The notes under the pieces: model-generated
What the model was told of the DNA's origin: nothing
Seen by the model: only the letters and a program-made list of their open reading frames with translations
Database searches by the model: none
Made by a program: the position numbers and the translations under genes
Assembly (NCBI GenBank): GCA_038400315.1
Contig: CP151667.1
Coordinates: 1,375,174 to 1,439,173, forward strand
Direction of reading: 5' to 3'
Source of the DNA: Isosphaeraceae bacterium EP7
Lineage (GTDB): Bacteria > Planctomycetota > Planctomycetia > Isosphaerales > Isosphaeraceae
DNA length: 64,000 nt
Part shown: positions 22,972 through 29,281 of the stretch, in pieces
Numbering within the stretch: position 1 is the stretch's first letter
Layout of the letters: every line of letters begins with the position of its first letter

Positions 22972-25900
22972 TCAGCGGGCCTTGGTTGCGGCGGCCAGCT
23001 CGCGGGCGGCGGCCTCGGCGGGTTTCTCGCCGATCCAGTCGACCAGAATCGGGGCGGCGATGTAGATGGTCGAGTAGGTTCCGCTGAGGAAGCCGACGAC
23101 CAGCGAGAAGGCGAAGCCGTGGAGGCCTTCGCCGCCGAAGGCGTAGAGGATCACCACGACCAGCCAGGCCGTCAGCGAGGTCAGGATGGTCCGGCTGAGG
23201 GTCTGGTTGACGGCCTCGTTGATCATCGCGGCGGTGAGGACCGGCGTCTTGCCGCGGATCTCGCGGATCCGGTCGAAGATGACGATGGTGTCATTGACCG
23301 AGAACCCGATGAGCGTGAGGAACGCCGCGATCATCGGCAGGTCGATCTTGAACGGCTCGATGCCGAGGTACTGCTGGAAGCCGGGGATCCGGGAGAGCCA
23401 GTAGCTGGCCGCGACGGCGCCCAGGGTGAACAGGACGTCGTGGACGACGGCGATGATGGCCGCCAAGCCGTAAGTGAGCGACTTGAACCGGAGCCAGAGG
23501 TAGGCGGCGATGATGAGCCAGCTCGCGATCGTGGCGATGACGGCGAGCTGCTTGGTCTCGCCGGCGACCACCGCGCCGAACTTCTCGAGTCGTTCGTAAA
23601 GCAGGTTCGGGTTGGACTGGATCTGGGCGGCGAGGGCCTTGAGCTGGGCACCGGCGACTTCGGGCTCGAGGTCGGTGCGGACGACCAGGGTGGTCGAGGA
23701 GAGGTCGGGCGAGCCGGCGGTCGCCTTCGGGTTGACGACCTCGAACCTGGAGGTCGGGTTGATGACCTTGGCGGCGTTGAGGCTCTGCTCGAAGGCCGAG
23801 GCAATCCGGCTCGGGGGCTGCTCGCTGTTGAACGTCAGGGTGTACTGGCGACCGCCCGCGAAGCGTGAGGCCGGTGCCGGGGTGGTGCCGGCCACGGGGG
23901 CGGGGGCCGTGGCGATGGGAGCGGGCTCGGAGAGGGTCATGACGATCTTGCGGAGGGCGCCCTTGAAGGCGTCCTGGATCTTGGCGGAGACGACCGCGAC
24001 ATCCTGCTCGGTGGTGCGGATGTTGTACCGAAGGCCGGCCTTCTCGCCGCCGATGTTGAGGGTCTCGACGGTGACGTCGGGTAGGCCCGCGGCCTTCTCG
24101 CGGACGAACTCGGCGCGGCGGGAGCCGGTGAGGTCGCGGACCTCGGGGTCTTCTGGGTTCAGGCGGATGGTGACCAGGGTTCCGCCGGTGAAGTCGATGT
24201 TATACATGGTGTTGCCACGCATGTAGACCAGGGCCAGGCCGACGGCGATGACGATGGTCGAGCCGACCATGCAGGCGCGACGGTAGCGGATGAAGTCGAT
24301 GTTGGTCTTGTCCATCATCTTCATCATCGTCAGCTTGCGGATGTAGCCCTTCGAGTAGCAGAAGTCGAAGATGACCCGCGAGACGTAGACGGCGGTGAAC
24401 AGGTTCCAGATCAGTCCGATGATGAGGGTCAGGGCGAAGCCTTTGACTTCCTCGGTGCCGACGAAGTAGAGGACGAAGCCGGAGAGCATCGTCGTGATGT
24501 TGGCGTCGAGGATGGTCGTCCAGGCACGGGAGAAGCCGTTGCGGATCTGCTGGGCAAGCCCGGCCCCTCGCTCCGCCTCTTCCCTCATGCGTTCGAAGAT
24601 GAGCACATTGGCATCGACGGCCATGCCGATGGTCAGGGCCAATCCCGCGAGGCCGGGGAGGGTGAACGTGGCGCGGAAGAGGGCCATCGAGCCGAGCAGG
24701 AGGACCATGTTCAATACGAGCGCGACGACGGCGACGAGGCCGGCGAAGCGGTAGTAGGCGATCATGAACAGGGGGACGACGAGCATCGACAGCTCGATGG
24801 CGAAGATCCCCTTGGCGATGGTGTCTTCACCCAGGGTCGGCCCGATCTTCTCTTCCTGGAGCGGGTTGGGATTGAGGCTGGCCGGCAGGCTGCCCGACCG
24901 GAGGATCTCGACGAGGTTGTCGACCTCCTTGGCGCGGAAGCCTTGTCCGCCCCCCTCGATGACGCCCGTCTCGCGGATCTCCGAGTTGATCTGAGGCGCG
25001 GACATGACGACGTTGTCGAGAAGGATGGCGAGCTGATAGTGGAACGCGCCCCCCTCCTTGGGGAGGTGGCTGCTGGTCAGCGAACCGAACTTTCGGGCAC
25101 CGGCGCGGTCGAAGACGAAGCCGACGGCTGGCTGCATCTTCTCGTCCTGGGTGCTATACACCCGGGCGAGATACTGGCCGGTGACGTTCTGCCGCTCGGG
25201 GGGGAGCTGGCAGAGGATGTAACGCTCGACGCGGCCGGGGGCGACGGTCTCCTCGCGGACGATGGGGTCGGCCTGGCGGGTCGAGTCCTTCGGCGGCGTG
25301 CCGATGTTGCTCGGGCTCTTCTCGATCTTGTAGGAGGCAACGCTGGCCAGCCCGTGGGGAGTCTCAAGCGTCAGGGAGTCGGCGGTGTTCTCCTTGATCA
25401 GCGGCGCGACGGTGCGATCCAGGCCGGCGGCGTCCTTGCCCGTGATCTCGACGGGAAGCCCGACATAGGCGTTCTTGGTCCAACGCTGGGAGGCGTCGGT
25501 GAGCGTGGTGCCGCCGGAGTTGCTGACCGGGGCCGTGCCGGTGATGGTCTCGCCGAGCTTGGCCCAGGTGTGGCCGGCGGGGGGCTTCAGGATGGCGCCG
25601 GGCTCGTAGGCACGCTTGGCGATGGCCTGAGCGCGGGCGTCGTAGCGGTTGGCGAGGATCCGGAATTCGAGCGAGCCGACGTCGGTCATCTTCCGCTTGA
25701 CGTCCTCGACCTCGTCGTCGGAGGCCTCGGACAGGATCAGCTCGATCCGGTTGCTGCCGATCTTGCGAATCGGCCGGTCGAGGACGCCATCGGGGTTGAT
25801 GCGCCGCTTCAGGGCGGTGATCAGGTCATCGATGTTGGCGTTCGACTTGCCGGAGTCGTTGTTGACCTCGTAGACGAGGATGGTTCCGCCCGACAGGTCG

Positions 25901-25992
25901 ATGCCCGGCTTCAGGCCGTAGACGTAGATGAACAGCAGGAACAGGGCGGTCAAGCCGCCGATCAGCGTGAATTTCTGGGTGAAGTTCTTCAT
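22972..25992 (-). CDS. secDF: SecD-SecF fusion, protein export membrane protein
   Basis: SecDF uses the proton gradient to pull exported proteins through SecYEG. The 1006-residue product fuses both subunits. The SecD half has the first helix (about residues 8-26), GIDLSGGTILVYEV (30-43), a large periplasmic region, and helices 2-6 with MAVDANVLIFERMREE. The SecF half starts near residue 567 with NIDFTGGTLVTIRL near 596 and later GFSVNDTIVIFDRIREI. The periplasmic part of the SecD half carries an insertion of about 75 residues between EPGAILKPPAGHTW and the STRQADPIV region. The ATG at 25992 (MKNFTQ) has AGGA seven bases upstream and is preferred over the start at 26016. It follows tgt and yajC in the same direction. 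Confidence 0.95.
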   Translation of the reverse strand: MKNFTQKFTLIGGLTALFLLFIYVYGLKPGIDLSGGTILVYEVNNDSGKSNANIDDLITALKRRINPDGVLDRPIRKIGSNRIELILSEASDDEVEDVKRKMTDVGSLEFRILANRYDARAQAIAKRAYEPGAILKPPAGHTWAKLGETITGTAPVSNSGGTTLTDASQRWTKNAYVGLPVEITGKDAAGLDRTVAPLIKENTADSLTLETPHGLASVASYKIEKSPSNIGTPPKDSTRQADPIVREETVAPGRVERYILCQLPPERQNVTGQYLARVYSTQDEKMQPAVGFVFDRAGARKFGSLTSSHLPKEGGAFHYQLAILLDNVVMSAPQINSEIRETGVIEGGGQGFRAKEVDNLVEILRSGSLPASLNPNPLQEEKIGPTLGEDTIAKGIFAIELSMLVVPLFMIAYYRFAGLVAVVALVLNMVLLLGSMALFRATFTLPGLAGLALTIGMAVDANVLIFERMREEAERGAGLAQQIRNGFSRAWTTILDANITTMLSGFVLYFVGTEEVKGFALTLIIGLIWNLFTAVYVSRVIFDFCYSKGYIRKLTMMKMMDKTNIDFIRYRRACMVGSTIVIAVGLALVYMRGNTMYNIDFTGGTLVTIRLNPEDPEVRDLTGSRRAEFVREKAAGLPDVTVETLNIGGEKAGLRYNIRTTEQDVAVVSAKIQDAFKGALRKIVMTLSEPAPIATAPAPVAGTTPAPASRFAGGRQYTLTFNSEQPPSRIASAFEQSLNAAKVINPTSRFEVVNPKATAGSPDLSSTTLVVRTDLEPEVAGAQLKALAAQIQSNPNLLYERLEKFGAVVAGETKQLAVIATIASWLIIAAYLWLRFKSLTYGLAAIIAVVHDVLFTLGAVAASYWLSRIPGFQQYLGIEPFKIDLPMIAAFLTLIGFSVNDTIVIFDRIREIRGKTPVLTAAMINEAVNQTLSRTILTSLTAWLVVVILYAFGGEGLHGFAFSLVVGFLSGTYSTIYIAAPILVDWIGEKPAEAAARELAAATKAR

Positions 25993-26174
25993 CGTGATTC
26001 CTGCGTCCATCGCCATGGGCCGCGGGCCGGCGGCGGCGGGTCGGCAACCTGGTTTGCCCCGATCAATCGGGGGGGAGAGTCACGGCGTAGTGGATTGAAT
26101 CGGGAGGGTCGAGGGCCGCTGCCGGCGTCTGCGCCGGGGCGTCGACCTGCGTCGAGGGTCGCCCGGATACGGGC

Positions 26175-26549
26175 TCACTCGGCGGCTTCGACCACGCGGG
26201 CGATGCTGCCGCGGCTGAATGTCAGGCGCATCTTGTTGTCATCGTCGACCCGAAGCACGACCTTGTCGGCCGCCTTGTCGATGGAGACGACGGTGCCGTA
26301 GAGGCCCATGTTGGTGATGACCTTGTCCCTGGGCTTCAGCGCGTCGACCGTCGCCCTGAGCTTCTTGGCCGCCTGTTGCTGGGGGCGGATGAGCACCAGG
26401 TAGAAGATGGGCAGCATCGGCAGGAGGGGCAGCAGGTTTACCAGGGGATTCCCGCTGGGGGCCTGCGGGGCGGGGGCCGCCTGGGCTTGGGCGAAAAGCA
26501 TCACAAGGTCGAGCGGGCCGAGCATATCATCCATCCGTCGGTCGGGCAT
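26175..26549 (-). CDS. yajC: YajC, preprotein translocase accessory subunit
   Basis: A small single-span membrane protein that associates with SecDF. The product of 124 residues has the hydrophobic helix LLPLLPMLPIFYLVLIRPQQ ending in the diagnostic RPQQ. A KPRDKVITNMGLYGTVVSID domain follows, then a short basic C-terminal part. This is the normal size and layout. The start is uncertain: ATG at 26549, or at 26534 five residues later; neither has a clear ribosome site. A 182-base gap, which includes a CCGGCG/CGCCGG hairpin at 26122-26137, separates it from secDF. The order tgt, yajC, secDF is the classic conserved operon. Confidence 0.93.
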   Translation of the reverse strand: MPDRRMDDMLGPLDLVMLFAQAQAAPAPQAPSGNPLVNLLPLLPMLPIFYLVLIRPQQQAAKKLRATVDALKPRDKVITNMGLYGTVVSIDKAADKVVLRVDDDNKMRLTFSRGSIARVVEAAE

Positions 26550-26612: not shown

Positions 26613-27773
26613 CTAGGGCCCGAGAACGTCCAGGATTTCCAGCTTGAATGGGACATACGTCCCCGCGCGGATCGCTTTGCGGGCTTGCGCCATTAGCCGG
26701 TGGATGTAACTGAGGTTGTGAATCGACGCCAGGATCGGCCCGAGCATCTCGCCCGCGTTGAACAGGTGGCGGAGATAGCCCCGGCTGAACCGGCGACAGG
26801 CCAGGCAGTCGCAGCCAACCTCGATGGGCCCGGGATCGAGCTTGTGCACGGCGTTGCGCAGCTTGACGGGGCCGGCGGAGGTCAGGCAAGTCGCGTTGCG
26901 GCCGTTGCGGGTGGGGAGCACGCAGTCGAACAGGTCGATGCCGGTCTCGATGGCGTCGAGCATGTCCTGTGGCCGGCCAACCCCCATCAGGTAGCGAGGC
27001 CGGTCGTCGGGCAAGTGGTGCGTGCTGGCCCTGAGGGCGGCCCGGACCTCGTCACGGGTCTCGCCGACGCTGACCCCGCCGACGGCATAACCGTCGAAGT
27101 CCATCTCCACCAGGGCCTCGGCGCAGCCGGCGCGAAGGTCCTCGTGAGACCCCCCCTGGACGATTGCGAACAGGGACTGGTCGGTGCGGGTGTGGGCGTC
27201 CTTGCAGCGACGTGCCCAGCGGACAGTGCGCCCGGTGGCGTCGGCCACGGCGGACTTCGCCGCGGGGAGCGCGGGGCAGTGATCCAGGCACATGGCGACG
27301 TCGGCGCCGAGGGCCTCCTGGATCGTGACGGCGCGTTCCGGCGTGAGGTCCAGGAGGCTGCCATCGAGGTGCGACCGGAAGGCGACGCCTTCCTCGGTGA
27401 GCTTCGACCGCGCCGAGAGGCTGAACGCCTGGAATCCGCCCGAATCGGTGAGGATCGGCCCTTGCCAGTCCATGAAGGAGTGCAGGCCGCCGAGGGTCTG
27501 GATGACGGCCTCGCCGGGGCGGAGGGCCAGGTGATAGGTGTTGGCCAGGACCATCCGGCTGCCGGTTTCAATCAGCTGGTCCGGGGTCAGACCTTTGACC
27601 GTCCCCTGGGTGCCGACCGGCATGAACGCGGGGGTTTCCAGGCTGCCGTGCGGTGTGTGGAGGATGCCGAGACGCGCGCCGGAGCCGGGATCGCGGCAGA
27701 CCACTTCAATCCGGACTGGGCGGGGCAACGCGGGGCCTCGGTGCGGGGGAGAGGGATGGTCGTCCGGGCGCAT
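26613..27773 (-). CDS. tgt: tRNA-guanine transglycosylase (queuine tRNA-ribosyltransferase)
   Basis: Exchanges the wobble guanine 34 of GUN-anticodon tRNAs for preQ1 in bacteria. The 386-residue protein has the acid/base D110 in TDSGGFQ and the nucleophile D283 in [13 protein letters not shown]. The substrate loop is LFAIVQGG, and the zinc site is C321, C323, C326 and H352 (CDCLAC with SIHNL 26 residues on). It therefore looks fully active. The GTG at 27809 would add 12 residues; the ATG at 27773 is used. It heads the tgt-yajC-secDF operon and complements queD-queC at 4504-5636. Confidence 0.95.
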
Positions 27774-27816
27774 CTTCGACCGGCACGATGATTCGGGGTC
27801 TCTGAACACAATGCGA

Positions 27817-27849
27817 TTGCCACGCGTCCAGTCGGAGGACGCGTGGCAA
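27817..27849 (-). terminator. Long perfect hairpin between the alpha-CTD gene and tgt
   Basis: TTGCCACGCGTCC (27817-27829) and GGACGCGTGGCAA (27837-27849) form a perfect 13-bp stem with a 7-base loop. It lies 43 bases after the stop of the TPR/alpha-CTD gene. No T-run follows on the minus strand, so it may be a terminator or a processing hairpin. Confidence 0.5.
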
Positions 27850-27892
27850 CCGGGGTCGTCTCGGGGAATAGATCAGTGACCGCGGGCGAAAC

Positions 27893-29281
27893 TCACTCGT
27901 TCTTGAGCTTGAGATTCAGCTCGGCGAGCTTCTCACGGACTTCATTGAGGGAGGTCACGCCGAAGTTCTTGCATTCGAGGAGCTGGTCGCCGGTGTAGCT
28001 GAGCAGCTCGCCGACGGTCTGGCAGCCGAGCTTCGTCATGCACTTGCGGGCGCGGACGGAGAGGTTCAGCTCACTGATGGTCCTGGCCATCATGGCCCGC
28101 TCTTCCTGCGACATCTCGGTGTGGCCGGAGTCGTGCCCGCCCATTCCGCCGCCGCCACCACCGCCGCCGCCACCGCCGCTGCCGCCAAGTCCGGCTGCCG
28201 CCGCGTGTTGCTGGCCGCCTTCGAGGGCGAGGCCGAGCCAGAGGCCCTTCGACTGCATCATCTCCTTGATCTCGGCGAGGCTGGTCTCGCCGAAGTTCTT
28301 GGAGGCGAGCAGCGCGGCCTCGGTGGTCCGGGTGAGGTCGCCGAGCGTCCGGATGTTCATCTTGCGGAGGCAGTTACGGCTCCGGACCGACAGCTCGAAG
28401 TCGGTGACCGGGATCTCCATGAGCTTGCCCTTGGCGAGATTGTCTCGCTCAAGGTTCTCGTCATAGTACATGTCGCGGCTGGCGCGACAGTCGCGGAAGA
28501 AGAGGCGGGCGCGGGGCTGGTTGGGGTCGAAGGAGAGCACCTGGCGGTAGCACTTCTCCGCCTCGCGGAACTCCATCCTGTCTTCGTACAGGACGCCCAG
28601 GTTGATGAGGGCGGCCATGGGGACGGGGGGCCGCTTCAGGCACTCGCGGTAATATTCGAGTGCCTCGCCATCGTTGCCATTGAGGTCGTTGTAATAAGCC
28701 AGCTCGAACAAGGCGCCGGTGTGCTGCCTGTCCGAGGCGATCGCCTTCTCGAACTCGGAGACGGCGCCGGTGATGTCGCCTTCGAGGGTCAGCAGGCTAC
28801 CGAGCTGGAAATGGTACTCGGCGGTCCCGCCGGAGCCGGTTTCGAGCGTGTCGAGCAGGGCACGGGCCTCTTCGACGCGGCCGGCGCGGCGAAGGGCGCC
28901 GACGCGGTGGAGTTCGGAGACGCGGGGCTCGTGGCCGGCGGCGGCGGCGGCGGCGAAGGCCGCGGCGGCGTCGTCCCAACGCTGGATGTTCTGGTAAGCA
29001 AGGCCCTTGTGGAACAGGCCGAGGCCGTTGTCGCCCGCCCGATTGAGATGGTCAAGGCCGTGCTGGTAGCGGCCCATGAGGACCTCGCCGACACCGATCC
29101 GGAGCGAGGCATCGGGGACGGGGTTGGCCTTGTGTCGATCGCGGATGACCGCCACGGCGTCGCGCAGGGTGCGATAGCGCGACGGGTCTCGCCCGAGCGC
29201 CTCACGCAGGTCGGCGACGGCCGAGGCGGTGAAGGGTTCGCGGTCAAGCAGGGTGCGGACATCGGAAGTCAGTTCGGCCAT
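27893..29281 (-). CDS. TPR protein with two RNA polymerase alpha-CTD-like domains
   Basis: A 462-residue protein joining tetratricopeptide repeats (about residues 60-280) to two modules resembling the C-terminal domain of RNA polymerase alpha. Module 1 (about 287-345) has FELSVRSRNCLRKMNI and KNFGETSLAEIKEMM; module 2 (about 394-462) has LNLSVRARKCMTKLGC and KNFGVTSLNEVREKLAEL. Both match the alpha-CTD helix-hairpin-helix. Module 1 keeps the Arg and Asn-Cys that contact UP-element DNA in E. coli alpha (R265, N268, C269 equivalents). Module 2 has Lys in place of the Asn. A Gly-rich linker (about 364-384) separates them. The rest of alpha is missing, so this is an accessory, possibly transcription-linked protein, known only as a hypothetical in planctomycetes. 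The ATG at 29281 has GAGGAG upstream. Confidence 0.85.
   Translation of the reverse strand: MAELTSDVRTLLDREPFTASAVADLREALGRDPSRYRTLRDAVAVIRDRHKANPVPDASLRIGVGEVLMGRYQHGLDHLNRAGDNGLGLFHKGLAYQNIQRWDDAAAAFAAAAAAGHEPRVSELHRVGALRRAGRVEEARALLDTLETGSGGTAEYHFQLGSLLTLEGDITGAVSEFEKAIASDRQHTGALFELAYYNDLNGNDGEALEYYRECLKRPPVPMAALINLGVLYEDRMEFREAEKCYRQVLSFDPNQPRARLFFRDCRASRDMYYDENLERDNLAKGKLMEIPVTDFELSVRSRNCLRKMNIRTLGDLTRTTEAALLASKNFGETSLAEIKEMMQSKGLWLGLALEGGQQHAAAAGLGGSGGGGGGGGGGGMGGHDSGHTEMSQEERAMMARTISELNLSVRARKCMTKLGCQTVGELLSYTGDQLLECKNFGVTSLNEVREKLAELNLKLKNE
28146..28186. repeat. CCG-rich simple repeat coding for the Gly linker
   Basis: A run of CCG/CCA triplets, all read as Gly on the minus strand, lies between the two alpha-CTD modules. 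Slippage could change linker length in steps of one residue. Confidence 0.7.

Follow-up and report, generated by a model that had tools for sequence, protein, structure and literature searches.

In RpoA, the C-terminal domain of the alpha subunit of RNA polymerase (αCTD; Pfam family PF03118) binds A/T-rich DNA upstream of promoters. In Escherichia coli, positions 265, 268, 269, 294, 296, 298, 299, and 302 of this domain have DNA-contact roles, and the acidic patch at positions 259 and 261 meets sigma. The protein described here, encoded by Isosphaeraceae bacterium EP7, resembles RpoA in the sequence family, the fold, and the DNA-contact residues of the αCTD. It differs in that it has no N-terminal domain of alpha (αNTD), carries its αCTDs on tetratricopeptide repeats (TPRs), has the domain in duplicate (CTD1 and CTD2), and has a CTD1 that belongs to a clade of its own.

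Other proteins also carry αCTDs outside RpoA. The BREX kinase PglW is matched weakly and locally, over the αCTD only (NCBIfam, 32.9 bits vs 990; PADLOC, E 2e-7 over residues 389 to 460), whereas its kinase (Pkinase) and NERD domains were not found by Pfam in the TPR-αCTD-αCTD protein. Planctomycete proteins with αCTD repeats and sigma70 region 4 likewise hold αCTD modules outside the polymerase in the same phylum; however, TPRs were not found in them, and they were encountered, unsurveyed, in few genomes. As for TPRs in transcription proteins, AfsR (SARP-NOD-TPR; PMC10936776) is a TPR-bearing transcription activator; activation by AfsR occurs via its SARP domain, whereas in the protein studied here the αCTD is built in.

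The original prediction had called this arrangement a transcription factor design without a well-known counterpart, and our literature searches agree with it, as they returned no published description of a TPR protein with αCTDs. Such proteins are also unmentioned in the accessible parts of PMC10632474, PMC8567305, PMC3444138, and PMC12283558. The first of these, on Planctopirus limnophila, reports 108 proteins that are essential, specific to the phylum, and without a known function, and the words "TPR" and "tetratricopeptide" are absent from its main text. The individual domains are already known and annotated in Pfam; what is new is their combination and its constancy throughout the phylum.

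A TPR protein with two genuine αCTDs

The window, a stretch of 64,000 nucleotides of the EP7 contig CP151667.1, contains the TPR-αCTD-αCTD gene as an exact open reading frame (ORF) on the minus strand, with the ATG at 29281, the stop at 27893 to 27895, and 462 codons. The positions of its domains and neighbors are given in Table 1.

Table 1. Features of the TPR-αCTD-αCTD gene and its downstream neighbors in the window
Feature	Coordinates	Strand	Remarks
TPR-αCTD-αCTD gene	27893..29281	minus	Whole gene, 462 aa
TPR superhelix, residues about 19-267	28481..29227	minus	Pfam, AlphaFold2, conservation
Linker, residues 268-287, with MYYDE	28421..28480	minus	M271, D274, E275 at 82-91%
CTD1, residues 288-354	28220..28420	minus	αCTD
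Inter-domain linker, variable, Gly-rich in window sequence	28112..28219	minus	Low model confidence
CTD2, residues 391-458	27908..28111	minus	αCTD; N268 position = K413; faster evolving
16-bp hairpin between TPR-αCTD-αCTD gene and tgt	27814..27852	minus	MFE -34.6 kcal/mol, z -5.93
tgt, queuine tRNA-ribosyltransferase, conserved downstream neighbor	26613..27809	minus	Pfam, context survey
yajC	26175..26549	minus	Pfam
secDF (fused)	22972..26016	minus	Pfam, context survey

A TPR scaffold with two αCTDs in place of the αNTD had been proposed for this gene, and this is what the Pfam scan recovered: two PF03118 (RNA_pol_A_CTD) stretches (whole-protein E 4.7e-41, 138.8 bits vs a cut-off of 23.8), several TPR families above their own cut-offs (TPR_2, 56.8 bits vs 27), and no αNTD family. 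The domain match is far beyond chance. The closest other helix-hairpin-helix (HhH) families scored far more weakly (POLH-Rev1_HhH, E 0.011; HHH_8, E 0.29), and the concern that another HhH family might fit the CTDs better is ruled out by these scores together with the Foldseek results below. The NCBIfam rpoA models remained far below their cut-offs (128.5 vs 302 and 124.5 vs 227.8), with their best stretches over the CTD parts.

AlphaFold2 models of nine sequences of the window's kind showed a confident helical repeat (residues 19 to 267), followed by two small helical domains that are connected by a low-confidence stretch. The C-terminal 195 residues were also modeled on their own, with a pLDDT of 79 to 87 over most of both CTDs. 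When this model was compared with the Protein Data Bank (PDB) by Foldseek, the best 50 of 348 matches were all RNA polymerase or αCTD entries, and the superposition on polymerase αCTDs at 0.8 to 0.9 Å bears out the fold proposed at the outset. The best superpositions were those with 9zum_E (0.8 Å, 66 columns) and 1lb2_B (0.9 Å, 65 columns), with 48% identity each, and 1z3e_B was also within the same range. The matches include 3n97, in which αCTD, sigma4, and UP DNA are present, and 9zum, in which αCTD is bound to AT-rich DNA. The whole-protein model retrieved generic TPR matches in the PDB. The C-terminal pair consists of genuine RNA polymerase αCTDs.

In its own genome, PF03118 occurs in three places, namely, once in a 339-aa frame (G000:C1:345338), which was taken as rpoA, and twice in the TPR-αCTD-αCTD gene. 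Because of this separate αCTD-bearing frame, the protein is not the sole rpoA. An RpoA fragment or pseudogene was ruled out by the same frame and by the match in 370 genomes (see below), and a chance or frame artifact by the phylum-wide conservation. A defense protein was also rejected, the PADLOC match being to PglW alone and lying over CTD2.

Within the TPR superhelix, the C-terminal repeats are better conserved than the N-terminal ones (mean majority frequency of 0.53 for residues 151 to 267 vs 0.36 for residues 19 to 150), and N227, E233, and D234 in the last TPRs are near-invariant; these three residues would suit a ligand groove. The Gly linker described in the original prediction exists in the window sequence as a Gly run at residues about 364 to 382, but no such run was seen in the relatives compared. 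To judge from the low model confidence, the connection between CTD1 and CTD2 is probably flexible.

A nearly always single-copy gene across the Planctomycetota

A survey across planctomycetes had been suggested, and it revealed a phylum-wide distribution. With the family profile A1 (45 members) and a match threshold of E 1e-30, at which a match does not by itself establish the complete architecture, matches were obtained in 370 of 392 Planctomycetota genomes, including that of EP7, and in 215 of the 217 high-quality genomes (completeness of 90% or more, contamination of 5% or less). The weakest match (G177) had an E value of 7.1e-36, not far from the values for rpoA or other TPR proteins, the strongest of which was 7.3e-27. 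The copy number was nearly always one, with two matches in five genomes of the table. Each of the two high-quality genomes without a match (G069 and G333) has one PF03118 place; therefore, the gene is absent from them or lies in a gap.

In the family and class sample, 37 of 40 genomes, again with EP7 included, had a long match with an E value no higher than 5.1e-70; none was found in the other three (G007, G016, and G036). PF03118 was present in 292 of 294 genomes sampled from the phylum, and approximately 228 of the 294, as counted by hand, had exactly three PF03118 places, which is the expectation for rpoA plus the TPR-αCTD-αCTD gene. A contig scan with peptides of the window protein returned eight planctomycete relatives and one TPR-only match in Chloroflexi; it missed most planctomycete homologs and thus says almost nothing on other phyla. 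In the plasmid collection, 32 records had a match, none of which covered 80% of the query. One locus on a putative viral contig (L183:5929-6507) encodes a 192-aa protein with one αCTD-like stretch.

CTD1 is more constrained than CTD2

The profile set A1, a 65-protein set, and a set of 25 genomes with both rpoA and the TPR-αCTD-αCTD gene in hand comprise only proteins with two detectable CTDs, a selection that somewhat favors conservation, and within this frame R300, N303, C304, G331, S334, and E337 of CTD1 (E. coli R265, N268, C269, G296, S299, and E302) were invariant in 45 of 45 aligned sequences. In E. coli numbering, all 25 genomes have R265, N268, C269, N294, G296, T298, S299, and E302 in CTD1, with T298 in place of K, a replacement also present in 24 of the 25 planctomycete RpoA sequences. 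The prediction that the first domain keeps its DNA-contacting residues therefore stands for 25 of 25 genomes, with one exception outside the set (G252). CTD2 retains R265 and E302 in all 25 genomes, G296 in 22, S299 in 21, and C269 in 16, and its N268 position is K in 17 genomes, R in 3, and A in 2. Judged by these residues, the DNA-contact equivalents are complete in CTD1 and partial in CTD2.

The acidic residues D294 and E296 of CTD1 correspond to E. coli positions 259 and 261. Position 259 is D or E, and both 261 and 286 are E, in 25 of 25 genomes. Position 297 is E in 23 of 25 CTD1 sequences (in RpoA, E in 12 and K in 9), and the mean net charge of CTD1 over the 25 genomes is only +0.8.

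Mean pairwise identity in the 25 genomes was highest for CTD1 (0.68), followed by the αCTD (0.60) and αNTD (0.59) of RpoA, CTD2 (0.51), and the TPRs (0.31). CTD1 identity exceeded that of the RpoA αCTD in 237 of 300 genome pairs, which are not independent of each other. In a maximum-likelihood tree of 157 domains, from which six identical domain rows were omitted, all CTD1 sequences formed one clade (99/97; 100% of 200 bootstrap trees, with the bootstrap not fully settled). The RpoA domains were placed with those of E. coli and Bacillus subtilis in another region, and CTD2 was loosely placed. The tree is based on 71 columns and its deeper branching lies beyond its resolution. A separate count of domains disregarded twelve loci that were duplicates or overlapped others, as well as the rpoA domains of L080, L093, and L099, which were then considered doubtful. 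The likeliest reading of these sequences is that CTD1 split from RpoA before the radiation of the phylum.

The same residues bear on an explanation in which the αCTD surfaces serve as a decoy or docking site, binding activators, anti-activators, or sigma region 4 instead of DNA, while the TPRs control their availability. The αCTD is a known protein target, as illustrated by the Spx-αCTD structures 1z3e and 3gfk among the Foldseek matches; every CTD1 of the 25 genomes retains E286 and the acidic residue of the 261 type; and G252 survives without the DNA residues of CTD1. A pure decoy would have no need of the DNA-contact positions, which are nevertheless invariant in 25 of 25 genomes; several non-DNA positions are equally invariant, so this comparison brings no decision. 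We regard this explanation as unlikely.

Lineage variants define a common core

Outside the selected sets lie G252, with a damaged CTD1, and the proteins without CTD2. CTD2 was not recognizable in four genomes of family f48 (G123, G228, G271, and G307), all of which keep TPR-CTD1; in G307, the profile match runs across a stop. Relatives in f48 and f79 (L081, L092, L078, and L096) have a low-scoring CTD2 (57.6 to 69.5 bits), and the N-terminal TPRs are missing in three f62 genomes (G113, G231, and G252). These variants share a core made up of CTD1 together with the linker and the final TPRs. The proposed duplication of αCTD modules is thus correct in that both are true αCTDs, but the two are not equivalent, CTD2 being weak or missing in some lineages.

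Against this core, CTD1 of the G252 homolog (L120) has lost the equivalents of R265, N268, and C269, and CTD2 looks intact. As G252 keeps the protein without these residues, CTD1 does not have to bind DNA in every case. L120 represents a natural test of which CTD carries the function.

Two αCTDs on a low-confidence, probably flexible linker would also suit a role in nucleoid architecture, in which a bivalent minor-groove binder bridges A/T tracts without a direct promoter role. However, the protein stays where CTD2 is weak (f79 and part of f48) or missing (four genomes), and we consider such a role very unlikely.

Genomic neighborhood

The gene had been placed upstream of tgt-secDF. Pfam identified both tgt and a fused SecDF, with the correction that yajC lies between them, giving the order TPR-αCTD-αCTD gene, tgt, yajC, secDF, and that a hairpin, a possible terminator or attenuator, precedes tgt (Table 1). 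A promoter scan detected no sigma70-like site on the gene's strand, a result that is uninformative for this phylum.

The context survey covered 38 loci from 24 families; it omitted the rpoA loci L080, L093, and L099, the short L103 to L105, and further f1 loci (L035, L037, L038, and L041), and stop-to-stop ORF starts hide a few neighbors from its distance filter (L040, L074, and L102). The next same-strand downstream gene was ruvA in 16 loci (12 families), and tgt was downstream in 16 loci (9 families). In 8 of the 11 checked among the 16 ruvA loci, the first candidate ruvA start lies 3 to 24 nt past the stop. The fullest order was observed in f79, namely, TPR-αCTD, ruvC, ruvA, ruvB, queH, spoIID, tgt, yajC, and secD, with yajC identified by tblastn in L078. 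The TPR-αCTD gene stands at the head of what resembles an old housekeeping cluster, and it was retained where that cluster broke up. The neighborhood supports age and coexpression without settling function.

This tight linkage to ruvA weakens a reading in terms of transcription and allows a nontranscriptional one, in which the protein is an accessory of recombination or repair, an HhH DNA-binding adaptor that is coexpressed with RuvA and brings a factor to recombination intermediates or positions it there. The frequency and closeness of ruvA and the f79 order speak for it. However, the gene remains at the f1, f5, and f7 loci, where no ruvA was found within the sequence retrieved; tgt, yajC, and secDF belong to the same old cluster, so that colocation is not equivalent to shared function; and the domains are αCTDs of RNA polymerase and of no other HhH family. 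A repair role thus appears quite improbable.

Other αCTD proteins in the phylum

Among eight other planctomycete αCTD proteins scanned, four combine αCTD and sigma70 region 4 in one chain, as if to mimic the αCTD-sigma contact at promoters. These proteins (L184, L185, L190, and L191, from G058, G095, G266, and G267) span 583 to 901 aa; in each, sigma70 region 4 comes after two or three αCTD stretches, and in L191 it scores just under the cut-off. L184 and L185 additionally contain HARE-HTH. Because these chains join αCTD repeats to sigma70 region 4, the αCTD is used as a separable transcription module in this phylum.

The remaining four differ in kind. In a 966-aa frame (L189:1538-4435), an αCTD (41.5 bits) is combined with a PurS-like stretch and with AIR-synthase (PurL-type) domains, which places it inside a purine enzyme; a plasmid search with this PurL-type protein revealed nothing further on the αCTD. 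A 1423-aa NERD-kinase frame with an αCTD (L187:2985-7253) is PglW-like, and two small stand-alone αCTD frames of 137 and 113 aa (L186:1047-1457 and L188:1102-1440) belong to family f5.

A possible αCTD in trans

Considering the distribution, the constraint on CTD1, and the separability of the module, the best reading is that of a core planctomycete protein that carries the αCTD of RNA polymerase in trans, and we give this reading, with the mechanism that follows, an even chance. Binding of DNA or polymerase by the protein is what we infer from its sequence. Upstream of promoters, R300 of CTD1 would reach into the minor groove of A/T-rich DNA, and the acidic pair D294 and E296 of the same domain could face sigma region 4. 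A protein partner would sit in the TPR groove (N227, E233, and D234) and may in this way be recruited to promoter-proximal DNA or held away from it. CTD2 would add a second, auxiliary contact, which individual lineages are free to alter or lose, and the four proteins without CTD2, all of which keep CTD1, were counted in favor of an αCTD in trans. A general promoter or nucleoid adaptor would be expected, rather than a regulator of a single operon. A stronger version, in which a phylum-wide core transcription factor acts as a detachable extra αCTD subunit, couples most promoters to the TPR-bound partner, and is required as firmly as the polymerase's own αCTD, seems doubtful.

The main evidence against an αCTD in trans is the loss in G252, together with a gene context of ruvA or tgt-sec genes and not of transcription genes. 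The predominance of E at CTD1 position 297, the low net charge of CTD1, and K or R at the N268 position of CTD2 in 20 of 25 genomes also count against it. Its chief rivals are the protein-docking decoy and the RuvA-linked repair adaptor. The earlier interpretation as a whole is partly supported, the contacts that it proposed with promoters, UP-elements, or activators being putative; the observation itself is confirmed and is larger than first thought.

Much of planctomycete biology is unexplained. An αCTD in trans that is present in nearly all genomes examined, and that in 25 genomes is held more tightly than that of RpoA, suggests an unrecognized standing component in promoter recognition or in the handling of promoter DNA in the Planctomycetota. 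The TPR-αCTD-αCTD protein may thus be a core component, so far overlooked, in the reading or handling of DNA by planctomycetes.
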